Of a stretch of DNA of 64,000 nucleotides, positions 6,875 through 53,899 are shown piece by piece; positions within the stretch are counted from its first letter, which is position 1; each line of letters starts with the position of its first letter. The stretch comes from Cytospora piceicola (Eukaryota; Ascomycota; Sordariomycetes; Diaporthales; Cytosporaceae). The notes beneath the pieces are model-generated. The model was not told the origin of the DNA. It worked only from the letters and a program-made list of their open reading frames with translations, and did not search any database. The position numbers were made by a program, and so were the translations under genes. The stretch spans positions 620,001 through 684,000 of the forward strand of contig JALQBC010000009.1 of NCBI GenBank assembly GCA_023375675.1, in the 5' to 3' direction.

Positions 6875-9169
6875 ATGCCTGTCGTCAAGGGAGGTGTGTG
6901 GACAAACATCGAGGATGAAGTCCTCAAGGCTGCCGTGTCCAAGTACGGCTTGAATCAGTGGGCACGTGTGTCGTCGCTGCTCGCTAGGAAAACGCCCAAG
7001 CAGTGCAAAGCAAGATGGCAGGAATGGCTGGATCCCAGCATCAAGAAGGTCGAATTCACCAAGGAGGAGGATGAGAAGCTGCTCCACCTGGCAAAGCTGA
7101 TGCCCACACAATGGCGAACCATCGCCCCCCTCGTCGGCCGAACCGCCAACCAATGCATCGAAAGATACCAGAAACTACTGGACGAGGCAGAGCAGAGGGA
7201 GGCCGGAGAATTGGGGTTGACTGGAGGAGACGAATCAGCTGCGCCGTCAGCGGATGATGTCCGACGACTGCGACCAGGCGAAGTCGACCCCGACCCAGAG
7301 ACGAAGCCAGCGCGACCCGATACCATCGACCTGGACGAAGACGAAAAGGAAATGCTCAGCGAGGCTCGTGCTCGTTTGGCCAACACACAGGGAAAGAAGG
7401 CAAAGCGAAAGGCACGAGAAAGGCAACAAGAGGAATCCAGGCGCTTGGCCGCCCTGCAGAAGCGTCGCGAGCTGAAGACTGCTGGAATAAACATTAAGGT
7501 GGTCACACGAAAGCAGGGTCAAATGGACTATAATGCCGATATACCGTTCGAGAAGAAAGCAGCACCGGGGTTCTACGATACGAGCGAGGAATTGACGCTG
7601 AACGAGAGGCAGCGAGCCACTTTCGACCCAAGGAAGCAGCAGTTAGCGCAGGCAAAGAGGAAGCAGGATGAGGATGAGGAGGCAGGCCGCAAGCGACGGA
7701 AGAACGACAAGGATGCTCCTTCAGCGTCCTACCGGGAGGCTCTCAAGGCTGGTCAGATGCAAAAGGTCAGGGAAGCGGAGCAGAGCAGTAAACGAAGGGC
7801 ACTGAACCTGCCGGCACCTCAAGTTGGCGAAGGGGAGCTGGAGGAGATTGTAAAGATGGGCATGATTGGTGAGCGGGCGAACACAATGGCAGAGGGCAAA
7901 AACGATGCCACTCGAGGCCTTGTCAACTCGTACAACACTATCAACACTAGCGCGCCGATTCGAACACCCAAGGCACCTGCTCATGAAGACCACATTGCCA
8001 ACGAACTCAGAAACATTCGGGCGTTGACTCAAACGCAGTCATCTCTACTCGGCGGCGAGAACACACCCCTTCATGAGGGAGCCGGATCAACGGGCTTCGA
8101 GTCGGCCGCCCCGAGGATGCAGAACATCGTCACACCAAACCCCCTAGCCACCCCCCTTCGGCAAGGGGCTAGCGGTGTTGGTGCTACACCCCTGCGTCCG
8201 GGACAGACTCCCTTACGGACGCCTCGTGATAACTTTGCGCTCAATGCTCAGGGTAACGACATGGTCTTGAGACACAGGCTCAAGCAAGGCTTATCATCAT
8301 TGCCCAAGCCTAAGCAACAGTCATGGGAGCTTGAACTGCCCGAGGAGCAGCAAGAAGTGGTCACAACCGAGAGTGGGCTCGCCGAGGATGCCTCAGAGCG
8401 TGATCGAAAGTCACGTGAATTGCAAGAAGCGCAAGAACTCATAGAGCGGAAGCGACGGACGCAGGTTATGCAACGTGACCTTCCACGACCTGAGTCTGTC
8501 AACGTGTCAGTACTTTTCCGGGCAGCCCAGGAAATAGAGGATCCGGCCGAAAGGGCAATTGCGCGTGAGGCTGCGATGCTAATGGCTTACGATGCGGCCA
8601 AATACCCACTGCCCGCTGCCAAGCACGGCGGAAAGGTGCCCCAACTGGAACAAATTGAGGATATTGCCCTGGTGGAGGCACGCAGGCAGATCCTGGTGGA
8701 GGCGAAGGACGAGCTAAAGCCAAAAGACGTTGAGGCTATATGGGCAAAGACTAACAGCAGTTCTCTGCTGTTGGGCCTTGGCTGCTACGATGACACTGAG
8801 CAAGAGGAACTGGTGGCCATGAGAGAAGCATTTGATGAGATCCAGGACACCATGATCGAATCTGCCGAGAAGGGCGCCAAGCTGCAGAAGAAGCTGGACC
8901 TGCATCTGGGCGGCTACAAGCAGCGTGGTGAAATGCTGCGGAAGAAGATGGGAGACACGGCGACTGAGCTTGAGAAGGCCACGAATGCGCTGAACTCGTT
9001 CAAGATCTTGGCCGCGTCCGAGGAGGCGGCAGTCAGAAACAGGCTGGCTGCGCTGCGCGAGGAGGTTGGATTTATCAGCAAGAGGGAGAGAGAGGCCCAG
9101 GAGATGTACAGGAGGAACAAGGAAGAGCTGGATGCTCTCACGGCGGAGGGCACCAATGGTTATCACTGA
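6875..9169 (+). CDS. cef1: CEF1/CDC5 pre-mRNA splicing factor
   Basis: A single-exon 764-residue protein, close to the usual length of Cdc5/Cef1 (about 750-800). Cdc5 is the Myb-like core of the Prp19-associated NTC complex and sits in the catalytic spliceosome. Two Myb/SANT repeats fill the first 105 residues: [21 protein letters not shown] with [11 protein letters not shown], then [20 protein letters not shown] with [11 protein letters not shown] charged Lys/Arg/Glu helical region follows, then a TP-rich stretch (repeated ATPL and TPLR elements near residues 420-450, typical phospho-sites in Cdc5), and a C-terminal coiled-coil domain. The ATG at 6875 gives the conserved MPVVKGGVW start. Confidence 0.95.
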
Positions 9170-9674: not shown

Positions 9675-11107
9675 ATGGCATCTACCACTACTAGAAGGTC
9701 CGCAACCCACGGGGCGCTTACCTTTGACCTCTTGGCGAAATGCTCTGTAAGGCTGTCTCTATGCGCCGCTCCCTCATCGAAACTCTGGAAACGTGAACTC
9801 CTGCTGACTTACGAGACCTCACTAGGGATAGACTACAAGAGCTCGCGCCTCCGTCCTCACCCTACCTCATGGCCCGGTTAACCTGCCCATGTTCATGCCT
9901 GTTGCCACCCAGGCTTCCCTGAAAGGCATCACGCCCGAGCAGCTCGAGCAGACGGGCTGCCGTCTCTGCCTGAACAACACATACCACCTAGGCTTGAAGC
10001 CAGGCCAGGAGGTCCTCGATGCCATAGGCGGTGCGCACAAGCTACAAGGGTGGAAACATAATATCCTGACGGACAGTGGAGGGTAGGTGGAACACTCCCG
10101 GCGAACCTACTCGTGCGTGGATCCAAGCAGGAGAGGACAACAAGCTTACAATGTCTACCGTGCACAGGTTCCAGATGGTCTCCCTCCTAAAACTAGCCAC
10201 CATAACGGAAGAAGGCGTGCGCTTCCTCTCGCCGCACGACGGGACACCCATGCTCCTGACCCCGGAGCACTCCATGTCCCTGCAGAACTCGATCGGCTCC
10301 GACATCATGATGCAGCTGGACGACGTGATCGTGACGACCTCGCCGGACCACCAGCGCATGCAAGAGGCCATGGAGCGGTCCGTCCGGTGGCTCGATCGGT
10401 GCATCGCGGCGCACAAGAACCCGGCGACCCAGAACCTATTCTGCATCATCCAGGGCGGCCTGGACCTCGACATGCGGCGCGCCTGCACCGAGGACATGGT
10501 CCGGCGGGACACGCCCGGCATCGCCATCGGCGGGCTGAGCGGCGGCGAGGCCAAGGCCGACTACTGCCGCGTCGTCGAGGCGTGCACGTCCATGCTGCCC
10601 GACCTGAAGCCCCGCTACGTCATGGGCATCGGCTACCCGGAGGACCTCGTCGTGAGCGTCGCGCTGGGCGCCGACATGTTTGACTGCGTGTGGCCCACGC
10701 GGACGGCGCGCTTCGGGAACGCCGTCACCAAGTCCGGCATGCTGAAGCTCAGGAACAACGAGTTCGCAAACGACTTTGGCATCATCGAGGAGGGGTGTGG
10801 GTGTGTCTGCTGTCGGCCTCGGGAGGCTGGAAAGGAGGCGGAGGGCTTGGCCGTCACGAGGGCCTTTATACATCACAACGTGGCCAAGGAGACGGTGGCG
10901 GCACATCTGCTCACTTTGCACAATGTCTGGTATCAGTTGAACCTCATGAAAGAGGTTCGAGGGGCGATTATTGAGGATAGATTTCCTGCTTTCATCGGGG
11001 AGTTCTTTGGCAGGTTATACCCAGATAAAAGCCAGTACCCGGAGTGGGCGGTGGGTGCTCTTCAAGGAGTTGGCGTCGACTTAATGCAGGATCCTCCTGT
11101 GGGATAA
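9675..11107 (+). CDS. QTRT1 homologue: Queuine tRNA-ribosyltransferase catalytic subunit (TGT)
   Basis: Exons 9675-9746, 9832-10082 and 10168-11107 (introns of 85 and 85 nt) encode 420 residues. The enzyme exchanges guanine 34 for queuine in GUN-anticodon tRNAs. Seen in the sequence: [32 protein letters not shown]; the active-site DSGGFQMVS, assembled across intron 2, with its catalytic aspartate; the GGLSGGE loop; the second conserved aspartate in [13 protein letters not shown]; and a zinc site C-x-C-x-CC (GCGCVCC) followed by a histidine in HNVAKE and later residues. The length matches eukaryotic QTRT1 (about 400). Intron 1 lies between AKCS and TTRARAS. The start at 9675 (MASTTT) is preferred to 9657. 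Budding yeast lacks this enzyme but it is usual in filamentous fungi. Confidence 0.93.
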
Positions 11108-37500: not shown

Positions 37501-38998
37501 AAGGCGAAGCAGATATGGTGAGCATCACACAGTCGCTATAGACGTACTTGGTCATGGTCAGGATTAGAAGTATGGAAAGGGAAGTCACAAGGCAGGTAAC
37601 TGTCACAGCAAGCAATTAGCTGCTATACCCGGTGCATTCTTGAAAAAGACGAGCAATTGAGGCTACCGTATCTCCTCTTTCTTTCACGTACAGCTTTTGA
37701 CTTACTGCTCAGACCGTTCGTGCCTTCTTTTGGGTTCGACACGCCAACGGAAGCATCAATATACCTAGGTACTCAGGTACTTACCGAGCCAACAGATTCA
37801 TCGAGGACCTCGGGATATAACTCAGCCTTCTGTCTAAGACACACAAACGAGACTTCAAGCAGGGTCAGCAAATAGTCCCTCGATAGAGTTTATAGAGGAG
37901 AATACTAGAATATACCTAAAACTTCCACTGAAGATCGCCAGCTACCCCCAGAATTTGAACTCGAATACCTTATAACTAGAATCAGTAGAAATCCACTACA
38001 TTACAACTTGGTCTCTTCTTTCCTAAATCCTGGCTGACAGCTAATGACCCAGCGTATGCGCAGCGTAGCCTGCTCCATATGTATCATCAGAGATCAATGC
38101 TCCTCCAGTGGCGACATGTTCGAGTACGTACGACTGATCAATTGATACATGGGCGACTGAATGTTAGTTCCCTAAACCGGCGAGTCTACGACATGATTCA
38201 TAGAATGGGCGATCAAGCAGATATTTACGCCGCAGCCAACGGAACATGGATGCCAGGTGAATCTCGACAAGATTCCGGACAATTTCAGCCTTATAGTTCT
38301 GGATACCTACCTAAGTACTTAAGGTAGGACTAAAATTACCCGCGGGTACCTAGGCTGCCAGGTAGATGTAAGACCCGATTACCCAATTACCTACCGGTAT
38401 CCTCGGTCACCCAGTTACCCAGTCACCAAGTTACATGATAACCCACGTGTCCCGCGTGTACCCACGGGTGAAGTTCTGGAGTCGCCCTCATCAGTTCCCA
38501 GCATGATGGAGTCGCGAACATTCGGAAAGGTATCGTGGTTCTTGACTACCGGGGTCTCTCTAGTATCGCCTCACCAGAACCAGCAGAAGAGTGATCGTAT
38601 AAGCCAACCCATTCCGGATCACCATCCGTTCCTCAATACTTTGGAGGTATCGGCCTGGTCGGTCGGGGAACTGTTTGTGGCTGGGCAGCGACTTTAGGCA
38701 CTCAAATCGGTGGCTTTGATGCCTCAGATAAAGTGCGACGGGAAACGATGTCTTCATTCCGGTCCTTGCGGGAAGCAATTGACCAGACAAGCTACATATT
38801 GCAGTGTCGTGGGCTGACGTGACACTTGAAGTCGGCAAAGCCTAAAGCCGATACCATCAATCCGGTAGCACCAAATTTCATTGGGCCCGGCCCGAGCCAC
38901 GGGACCCACTTTATCGGGCACCAATTGGCACGAGTCAAGTGTCCCGCGGCCGGTGTCGCTCATCAATATAATCTGGTTTCCACCCGTACTCAACAACT
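37501..38998. other. 1.5-kb spacer upstream of the tRNA gene
   Basis: Contains ACCTAGGTA elements (37760, 38309-38330, 38347) and a degenerate run of TTACCCA-like units at about 38375-38435. No supported gene. Confidence 0.45.
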
Positions 38999-39034
38999 GG
39001 CCTGATGGTCTAGCGGTATGATTCGTGCTTCGGG

Positions 39035-39069
39035 TTTTCATAATCTCGACAACAGTTAACTGTTGCTAC
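39035..39069 (+). other. Canonical tRNA intron (37/38), 35 nt
   Basis: It lies directly after the base 3' to the anticodon, the position cut by tRNA splicing endonuclease. It contains a 16-base perfect palindrome (39050-39065, CAACAGTTAACTGTTG) and starts with four T. Confidence 0.75.
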
Positions 39070-39081
39070 TGTGCGAGGTCC

Positions 39082-39140
39082 GTACGTATTATCCTCAAGT
39101 TCAAATGCGATATAAACAAATCATTCTAACAAAATAACAG
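39082..39140 (+). other. 59-nt spliceosomal-intron-like insertion in the tRNA T arm
   Basis: It begins GTACGT, has CTAAC at 39126-39130 as a candidate branch site and ends ACAG ten bases later. The length is typical for a fungal mRNA intron. Its exact removal joins C (39081) to CGGG (39141) and restores a 5-bp T stem and the normal variable loop length. Confidence 0.7.
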
Positions 39141-39176
39141 CGGGTTCAATCCCCGGTCAGGCCCATCAAAAAATCC

Positions 39177-39183
39177 TTTTTTT
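39177..39183 (+). terminator. RNA polymerase III terminator of tRNA-Pro
   Basis: A run of seven T begins 13 bases after the tRNA discriminator base, as expected for Pol III termination. Confidence 0.75.
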
Positions 39184-50682: not shown

Positions 50683-53600
50683 TCATGTCCTCGGACTCCT
50701 GAGGAAGCCCACTACACCCGAGGTGTACCCAACCAGATTATCCAGGCGGCCCTTCTCTCTCTCCTGATGAACCTTCCATCTCTTCAGCTCGCCCAGCAGC
50801 ACCTCATTCTCCATAACCAAGTCGAAGTGTAGCCTCAAGAACACAGTCATCCAAGCCTGCGTCAGCTCGTAATCCCGCCTGGCGGTGAGTCGGGCTGTCA
50901 AGGCACGAATGAAATGCAAAAGCTCGTTGTCCTCGCTATCCCCGGCGCCACCAATCGACAACGAGCGCAGCTCGAGGTCCGCAGTCGATGGTGACAGTGC
51001 TTTCAGATGCTCAATGAACTCGTCGTAGTTACCACTGTCGGCGCCATCACGGAGTTTCGCGCTGAAAGCCTCCTGCGACCGAGCCCAGTCGAGCTTCGTG
51101 ATTCGGGACTTAGATTCGTCTTGTCCATTGGCAGGAGCCAGGGCATTTTGATCCTGAGCCTTATTCCCGTTGCTAGATGGCAGGAAAAACGGCGCCTTTT
51201 CCGGTGCCTTCGGTGCCTCGGTGGGCTTGTTGCGCTTCTTGATCAGGTCCAGGTGAAGCAGGGTCTGCCACCTGCTCTTCGGTACCAGACTCAACGTCAT
51301 CATGTCTGCGCTCAACTGGTCCAGATTTGGCGCCGCCACGCCATCATCCTCCTCGTCCTCCTTGTTGTCTTCCTCGAAAGCAGCCTCAATCAAGCCCTGG
51401 CCACCCTCTCCGGATGTGGTAGGTCCTGATATCTGGCCGATCTCCTTTTCTGATATTTGCCTGGTGGGCACGTGCTTGAATGCCGCCCTGTTTGTGAAGA
51501 TGTTCACTCCGAGCTGGCCCTCGTTCGAGAGTGCCAGGTAGTCGCCGGTCGCTGAGAAGGCCAGTGCTGTGCACGGAGTCTCCGACCTGAAGGCGTCAAT
51601 CAAGTGGCTAGTGGGCAGGTCCCACACACGCACAATACTATCTTGCGACGCGGCGAGTATCCAGCGACCATCGTTGGAGAAGCAGAAGTCGTTGATCGCC
51701 CCCTGACAGCCCCAAAACTCTCTGATAGTCTTCTTCGTTTCGATATCCACGACCCGGATAGAGTTGTCGTCACACGAAAAGGCGATCAGGTCATTTGCTG
51801 CGTGGTACCGACATCCTGTCACCTTTGTCATTGGGGCCCAGTCAATCTGGTCCAGCAGATTACCCGTCAGGAATTCCCAAAACTTCACAGTTCCGTCTAG
51901 AGAGCAAGAAATGACCATCTTGTTCAGGGAGTCAACGACAATGCCAGTGACAGCCTTGATATGCTTTCCGGTTCCTGGCGCAAATGTGAACCTGGACCTC
52001 GCATGTAGTTGCTGAACAGAGTCTGCTTGCTTCAGCTGGTGCAGCTTCATCTGTCTGGCCTGGGCGGGCGTGAGTCGCGAAGGGAACTTCTGGCGGTGCA
52101 TGCCTGACTGCAAGTTGAACATGTCGAGACTACCTCCCTCAGAACCCACCAATGCGAAGGTGCCGCAAGGACTTATCGAGACTGTAGAAACATCCATCCC
52201 ATCCCCAGTCTGGAAAGCCCATCGGCCGGCCCTCTTTCGGCCCCAGAACCATGTTCGGGCATAGGGGTCGCCCTTGTGACCAGTGACTACACTTTCCCAG
52301 CCAGTCATTGCGCTTATTTCAGCATCTGCTTTCTTGTTGTTGTTGCCCTTTTGCCAGATTTGTTGTTTGCCAGGAACGGCACCCATTCCACCGTCGCGGT
52401 TGAGTGACGAGGCTATAGACGTAATCTCGGGAGCCTTCAGGTCGTCGAGCGTCGTCGTTGGCCCGTGGCTGAGAGCCGATTGAGAGAGAACTCCGATCTT
52501 CTTTGCTTTCTTGCGGATTGCGCCTTGGCTCAACTCGGTACTCTGTCCATCGCGGCGCAAACTCCATCCCCAGAGACTTCGGTCCTTTCCACCACTCAAG
52601 AGCCACTTGTTACCAGCTTCGGAACCATCAAAATCAGTGGGAAGGAACTCAAGGCAGGTGACTGGGCCGGCATGTCCGCTCCGTGAGTGCAGAATGCGTG
52701 GGATTGGGGAGAAGGGCGTCTCGTCGAAAATCCACGATTTCAAGGAGTTGTCTAGACCGCTGGAGACAATGACAGGTTGTCCGGGAAGGAACTCTATCTT
52801 GCTCACTCCGCCGCCAACAACGGGGCCTTCACGTGCTGGAGGATTGTGAGCACTGCGAAGAACACCCATTATCCTGCCCCCTTTATTAAGATCCCAGAAG
52901 GTAACGTCGCCGTTTTTTGTTGTGGCCGTGGCCATCACACCGTCTTTGCGACCGTCTTGGCCGGCTCCTTGGCCGTCTGTTCGGAATGAGATCGCAGTCA
53001 CCGGCGCCTCTTCTGTGCCAGCCATCAGCTGGACAACTCTCTTGTCCATTAGAATATCGTGAATTATCAGAGGACCGTTGGAGTAGGATATGGCCAGCAA
53101 AGAGAGAGCCGGGGTGGGCTCCAAGCAAGCAACGGCACCGCATTTTGCCGAAGGAGGAAGGATGGTGTAAATCAGCTTTCCCGTGCTGATGTTCCAGATC
53201 TCAACCCATCCGTCACGTCGTCCCACGAATATTTTGTTCAAGTAGGTCGGCATATTGCAGACTCCTCCAGTCAATTCATTGTCGCCCAGCTTCGAGGCGG
53301 CAGTGTGCAGAGTCGTGTAGTGCTCGAGGGTTGCCGTCTTGAAGACCTCGATCCTGGTTAAGCAACATGCCACTATCCAAGAGCCAAAGATGAGGATCTG
53401 TCGTATAGGTTGATCAAGGTCATTGGGTAGCTCGAGCTCGGCGACCTTCTTGCCCCTCTGGAACACCCAGAAGCCCTGAGAGCCTCCATTGCGCGAGTCT
53501 CCCCAGGCGGCAAAGACCTTCTCTTTCCAGGCATATGTTGCGGTGATATCGGCAGGCGCTTGAGGCCGAGTGATGAAGACGAGGTTGAGGCCACGCTTTA

Positions 53601-53899
53601 GGTCGTAGGTCTGGAGAGATCGGCCGACGGAAGTGGTGATCTGGAAGGTGGTTTTGCCCAAAGGTATGGAGGTGAAGGGAACACTGGTTGGAGAAACCAA
53701 TCCGACTGTCTGTTTAGAGGGGACATCAGCATATTTGAATCAATGGAGCCATATATAGCCTCGGGCACTGGCATGGACATACTCTGAAGGGCGCAAAGAT
53801 GCGCGATGCGTTTGGTGACGAAGGAGAGGCGGACTTCGAAGGAGCGCCGACCTTCTGGCGCTTAATCATAGGACCGTCATGTTGCTGCGAGTGAGGCAT
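50683..53899 (-). CDS. utp21: UTP21/WDR36, small-subunit processome WD40 protein
   Basis: Exons 53783-53899 and 50683-53709 (73-nt intron) encode 1047 residues. The protein belongs to the UTP-B module of the nucleolar SSU processome, which is needed for 18S rRNA maturation. The short first exon is basic (MIKRQKVGAPSK) and ends IFAPFR, joined to TVGLVS. Two WD40 propellers follow, with repeats such as RIEVFKTATLEHY, FVGRRDGWVEIWN, ATTKNGDVTFWDLN, GSEGGSLDMFNLQSG, SCSLDGTVKFWEF, SCDDNSIRVVDI and AASQDSIVRVWDLP. The C-terminal 200 residues form the Utp21-specific helical domain (SKSRWQTLLHLDLIKKRNKP; DLELRSLSIGG; HFIRALTARLTARRDYEL). The length is within the fungal range. Confidence 0.95.

Follow-up and report, generated by a model that had tools for sequence, protein, structure and literature searches.

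Only two small structured RNAs, U3 and U6, are known so far to be often interrupted by an intron, according to the accessible part of one account (PMC5832005), and the accessible text of another describes a spliceosomal intron in the U6 gene of S. pombe, a gene transcribed by Pol III (PMC8917221). Introns in the T arm of tRNA genes have been described in Cyanidioschyzon merolae, where the tRNA splicing endonuclease is thought to recognise bulge-helix-bulge (BHB) motifs, and in nucleomorphs, where their mode of excision is described as unknown (accessible portions of PMC4090602 and PMC9602550). Short insertions in the D or T arm of eukaryotic tRNA genes are found mostly in one of many synonymous genes, and these are supposed to be pseudogenes (PMC4090602, accessible portion). 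In the literature on tRNA-gene introns and U6 that we covered, most subscription papers lying outside that coverage, we found no description of a spliceosomal intron in a tRNA gene. The first-pass annotation of the present DNA had known of no precedent in fungi, a statement to be qualified, since the S. pombe U6 intron and the T-arm introns of the red alga and of nucleomorphs are known (PMC8917221, PMC4090602, PMC9602550, each as far as its accessible text goes).

Within the window, i.e. the whole stretch of 64,000 nucleotides that was analysed, lies a tRNA-Pro(CGG) gene that holds two introns of different appearance (Table 1). The anatomy put forward by the first-pass annotation proved correct to the base: with positions 39035-39069 and 39082-39140 taken out, the joined exons form a 72-nt molecule that ARAGORN calls tRNA-Pro(CGG), and the T arm does hold a 59-nt insert reading GTACGT...CTAAC...ACAG, with 10 nt from CTAAC to its end. 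With the insert alone removed, ARAGORN placed a 35-nt intron at position 37 of the tRNA that it called; it called none from the gene lacking only intron 1, nor from the unspliced gene, to which the Rfam tRNA model aligned end to end at 17.4 bits, below its cut-off (gathering score 29). Neither ARAGORN nor Rfam reported a tRNA anywhere in the window. Intron 1 has the canonical features, namely the position 37/38 and, in predicted folds, pairing of the intron to the anticodon region.

Table 1. Features of the interrupted tRNA-Pro(CGG) gene (window positions) and of the U6 gene L040 of the same genome
Feature	Position	Strand	Basis
TATA-like element (TATAA) 32 nt upstream of the gene	38967..38971	+	motif reading only
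Exon 1: acceptor 5' strand, D arm, anticodon CGG (39031-39033)	38999..39034	+	sequence, copy alignment, ARAGORN
A box (TGGTCTAGCGG), as in Pol III promoters	39006..39016	+	position from box scan
Intron 1, canonical tRNA intron at 37/38, 35 nt	39035..39069	+	ARAGORN; anticodon-intron pairing in predicted fold
Exon 2, 12 nt: anticodon stem 3' strand, variable loop, C49	39070..39081	+	sequence, copy alignment
Intron 2, 59 nt, spliceosomal-type, at T stem positions 49/50	39082..39140	+	common site in six genes
Predicted 5' splice site, GTACGT	39082..39087	+	six-copy comparison
B-box-like AGTTCAAATGC within intron 2	39098..39108	+	GTTCRA in 6/6 inserts; 7.4 bits here vs 9.3 for the weakest true box
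Predicted branch site, CTAAC	39126..39130	+	intron position 45 in 6/6; 10 nt to intron end
Predicted 3' splice site, CAG	39138..39140	+	CAG in five inserts, TAG in one
Exon 3: C50-G53, T loop, T stem 3' strand, acceptor 3' strand, C73	39141..39164	+	sequence, ARAGORN
Exonic B box / T loop, GGTTCAATCCC	39143..39153	+	box scan
T7 run, probable Pol III terminator	39177..39183	+	sequence; T run downstream in all six genes
U6 gene L040	G000:C68:682185-682353	minus	reads with two spliceosomal-type introns, 53 and 60 nt

The tRNA gene is flanked by ORFs for a PHP-domain protein and for a Fungal_trans protein, the nearest of at least 250 aa on each side. Utp21 is encoded at 50683-53700, where the match to the 1049-residue Utp21 chain 5oql_O, probably from Chaetomium thermophilum, reaches 1758 bits against 472 for the next best chain, which suggests a Sordariomycete host. 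The window also carries genes for a Cef1/Cdc5-type splicing factor (6875-9169) and a queuine tRNA-ribosyltransferase (10076-11107), for neither of which we claim a link to the tRNA. Proline codons are used nearly evenly (CCT 150, CCC 167, CCA 142, CCG 174) in 19 of the 20 window ORFs of at least 250 aa, one overlapping ORF being omitted.

Intron-like motifs alone are not rare, and a single copy of the insert would therefore be weak evidence: the signal-plus-frame scan by which introns were called gave nine rows in the window and nine in its reversed sequence. Seven of the window rows were frame-compatible, corresponding to six sites (one is the tRNA insert, one was listed twice), against none in the reversed sequence, where frames are scrambled anyway. 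The five other frame-compatible introns measure 55, 55, 60, 65 and 91 nt, with 8-20 nt from the branch site to the end, and two of the five also begin with GTACGT; having been selected by the same signals, they indicate that the length and spacing of the insert are usual here, and not that its signals are. Two coding-potential intron callers (8 calls; 4 vs 1 in the reversed control; several of them poor) were set aside. The usual exon context of a spliceosomal intron is AG|G, from which the insert departs, with CC before it and CG after it. What goes beyond chance is the presence of the insert at the same base in six genes.

These six tRNA-Pro genes, four with anticodon AGG and two with CGG, lie on four contigs, and each has 59 nt inserted at 49/50. 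The census behind this count searched the 43.6-Mb genome with a D-arm pattern allowing up to two mismatches and gave 14 sites, ten of which were tRNA-Pro by inspection; more divergent tRNA-Pro genes could escape it, and the family therefore comprises at least six. Among the ten, the insert is present in 4/5 AGG, 2/3 CGG and 0/2 TGG genes, which leaves one AGG gene (on C20), one CGG gene (L016) and two TGG genes without it. The window gene is thus not the only tRNA-Pro(CGG) gene, a possibility that the first-pass annotation had raised in support of its function, as three were found, two of them with the insert; several intact CGG genes elsewhere, which the same annotation had listed among the signs of a pseudogene, are represented only in part, by L016, a gene with a different body. 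The six interrupted genes probably go back to one insertion and do not count as independent cases.

Other searches of the genome converged on the same family. A search for a CTAAC branch site followed by AG and a B box returned the six genes and two sites resembling ordinary tRNA arms, and every match to the window gene at the DNA level (8 pieces) fell in the six. This CTAAC pattern and those with GTAAGT or GTGAGT before a B box together gave the six genes, the two ordinary tRNA arms and a chance site, L107, which was rejected as a further interrupted tRNA because inspection revealed no tRNA there; the corresponding CTGAC pattern gave 14 sites, mostly ordinary anticodon arms and a few chance-like (five of the 14 inspected), and GTATGT gave one. 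A pattern for uninterrupted 3' halves matched both TGG genes and the C20 AGG gene perfectly, and a further three sites at two mismatches. The tRNA family search scored 63 of 1659 candidates, with 50 regions taken and L046 limited to 10 kb. An introner-like mobile intron was rejected, since neither the window gene nor an AGG insert matched anything in the genome but tRNA-Pro genes at E <= 0.001, in a DNA search that skips very common words. No relatives were found in viral_contigs or genome_contigs, as expected, because neither is a fungal collection.

With both introns removed, ARAGORN called tRNA-Pro in all six genes; with only the insert removed it still called a tRNA in each, tRNA-Pro in five and, through another intron placement, tRNA-Phe in one. 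Run on the genes as they stand, with introns of up to 200 nt allowed, it found none of the six. Given this result and the silence of ARAGORN and Rfam in the window, annotation may well miss interrupted genes of this kind.

Two of the interrupted AGG genes (G000:C1:939662-940089) lie in direct orientation with starts 281 bp apart and differing inserts, and are the sole adjoining pair among the six. Three further tRNA genes (L020, L021 and L022) have a related D arm (TGGTCTAGGGGTATGAT) and are non-Pro by inspection. A tRNA gene cluster, including two genes with a TCA anticodon, was seen on G000:C65 (135 kb), which is probably the mitochondrial genome.

The inserts share the features of U2-type introns in all six genes: a GT start fitting GTRNGT (GTAAGT in three, GTGAGT in two, GTACGT in one), an AG end of the form YAG, and a branch site at fungal spacing. 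Comparison of the copies sets exon against insert. Over the mature 72 nt the two CGG genes do not differ (0/72 differences), nor do the four AGG genes (0/72), whereas the CGG inserts differ from each other at 18/59 sites (Fisher p = 1.1e-7) and those of the AGG four vary in 10/59 columns (Fisher p = 2.2e-4). Signal positions of the CGG-pair insert changed at 2/14 sites vs 16/45 for the rest, a difference that is not significant (p = 0.19), and the signal changes seen stay within consensus (GTACGT/GTAAGT, GTGAGT/GTAAGT, CAG/TAG). At acceptor pairs 3-70 and 7-66 the AGG and CGG groups have different bases on either side yet still pair, and the interrupted AGG body differs from the AGG gene on C20 by a two-sided anticodon-stem change, U-A to G-C, as read from the sequences. 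The flanks of the six genes (300 nt upstream, 250 nt downstream) have no similarity by blastn at E 0.01; the single match, of 19 nt, is the same DNA, the flanks of two neighbouring C1 copies overlapping. A run of at least five T starts 11-24 nt downstream of every gene, and TATA- or TTAAA-like motifs stand at -26 to -37 in four of the six.

Identical exons around a diverged insert point to working genes from which the insert is removed and not to a fresh pseudogene, a candidate that the six copies with identical exons rule out; concerted evolution may account for part of the exon identity. The same pattern bears on the idea that the six genes are dead or unprocessed relics, with insert-less tRNA-Pro genes doing the work. 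AGG, CGG and TGG genes without the insert are present, so the six might be dispensable, and the supposed pseudogenes with short D- or T-arm insertions would offer a parallel. We nevertheless consider relics very improbable in view of 0/72 exonic against 18/59 insert differences, the number of copies, the T runs following all of them, and an insert present in 4/5 of the AGG genes found.

With regard to the machinery, one alternative is that the tRNA splicing endonuclease has a second, non-canonical target in intron 2, of the kind supposed for the ectopic introns of C. merolae. The T-arm introns of that alga and of nucleomorphs would be precedents, and the window gene already holds an endonuclease-type intron in intron 1. 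Read by eye, however, the predicted folds of the six genes have no bulge-helix-bulge at the insert junctions, and a BHB intron was rejected for intron 2 on this ground. The RNAalifold consensus leaves the insert unpaired, including its 3' part, except for its first bases, which pair with the D arm and cover the 5' splice site; predicted folds of the whole precursor pair the same elements. If such a fold forms, it would count somewhat against easy splicing. In five of the six inserts the fold is no stronger than in shuffles, C1b being the exception at about 1.3 sd better, and what all six have in common is GT, CTAAC and AG at fixed spacing, which the endonuclease is not known to require. Cleavage by the endonuclease at this second site is accordingly very improbable. 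A further option is that the insert is retained as a giant variable region, with the T hairpin formed from exon 3 alone; such a hairpin of 3 to 4 bp appears in 5/6 unspliced folds (the AGG copy on C7 folds otherwise), but the insert is 66-71% A+T and mostly unstructured, its 59 nt would split the outer T-stem pair, and splice signals would need no conservation, all of which makes retention extremely improbable.

The reading that we prefer, with a probability of roughly 0.84, is that a family of six or more tRNA-Pro genes, Pol III-transcribed and probably functional, contains two kinds of intron, and that the second would be removed by the spliceosome. Pol III would transcribe the gene with both introns, the nuclear spliceosome would next remove intron 2 and so make the 5-bp T stem whole, the precursor would then be trimmed at its ends and exported, and the endonuclease would remove intron 1 last, with ligase joining the halves; this order is one that we infer. 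The first-pass annotation had left three options side by side, of which the spliceosome acting on a Pol III transcript now appears best supported; a recently interrupted copy is contradicted by the identical exons and diverged inserts of the six genes, and a second endonuclease site is disfavoured by the lack of a visible bulge-helix-bulge at the insert ends.

The same genome offers a second candidate case of an interrupted Pol III gene. Two U6 matches were found, of which L039 is uninterrupted and L040 reads as interrupted, with an exon of 14 nt, an intron of 53 nt (GTAAGT...CTAAT...ACAAG), an exon of 28 nt, an intron of 60 nt (GTAGGT...CTGAC...ACAG) and the rest of the gene. Joining the exons of L040 restores ACAGAGA...AGCATGG and leaves 5 differences from L039 in the first 74 bases, with more toward the 3' end. 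Of the two sites, the Rfam U6 model independently recovers an insertion at the second only and forces a poor 5' stem at the first; the second intron is for this reason firm as a reading of the sequence, whereas the first is our own assignment.

The inserts may in addition carry promoter elements. GTTCRA occurs in 6/6 tRNA-Pro inserts, 72-92 nt from the A box, with the exonic B box at 118-137 nt. The spacing of A and B boxes in yeast tRNA genes is 31-93 nt (PMC4937561, accessible part). The intronic GTTCRA is the best B-box window of the insert in five genes, at 5.7-7.4 bits (in C1a1 another window tops), on a scale set by 37 true B boxes that were themselves chosen by the GTTCRA pattern, the weakest scoring 9.3 bits; shuffle p-values for the intronic box are 0.004-0.018 and are not independent. 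In L040 the introns hold an A-box-like stretch (TGGCTCAACCG) and a B-box-like one (AGTTCAAGTC), 99 nt apart; with 9.5 bits AGTTCAAGTC lies at the lower end of the range of true B boxes, and TGGCTCAACCG is an unscored motif resemblance. The U6 intron of S. pombe carries a B box. A broader proposal, which we offer tentatively and with some doubt, has two parts: most AGG genes (4/5 of those found) would need the spliceosome to yield a working tRNA, so that tRNA supply would be coupled to pre-mRNA splicing, and the intronic second B box, nearer to the A box, would help to drive Pol III, as the intron boxes of L040 may do.

If spliceosomal removal of intron 2 is true, the spliceosome matures a tRNA and two unrelated splicing systems join in one transcript, translation capacity is linked to mRNA splicing, and Pol III RNAs besides U6 can be spliceosome substrates; tRNA gene finders may then overlook a class of tRNA genes, of which ARAGORN found 0/6 here. 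Set against known systems, intron 1 belongs with the canonical 37/38 introns of eukaryotic tRNAs, and intron 2 differs from them in site, signals and fold. Nuclear tRNA genes with T-arm introns besides those at 37/38 are shared with C. merolae and nucleomorphs (PMC4090602, PMC9602550, accessible portions). In the accessible text on these systems, the T-arm intron of C. merolae tRNA-Ile sits at 53/54 and is tied to BHB motifs, and those of the Guillardia theta nucleomorph measure 3-24 nt, whereas the tRNA-Pro insert lies at 49/50, is 59 nt long and bears spliceosomal signals. The introns of fungal U3 snoRNA are likewise spliceosomal and interrupt a small structured RNA, as far as the accessible sources describe them, with a different host RNA and gene class. 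The mRNA-type introns in U6 genes of S. pombe and other fungi form a further parallel: in the accessible account of S. pombe (PMC8917221) the spliceosome takes the intron out of this Pol III transcript, and L040 of the present genome reads likewise; the tRNA-Pro genes differ from U6 in that the host is not a component of the spliceosome, the same precursor has an endonuclease-type intron, and the family spans two isoacceptors.
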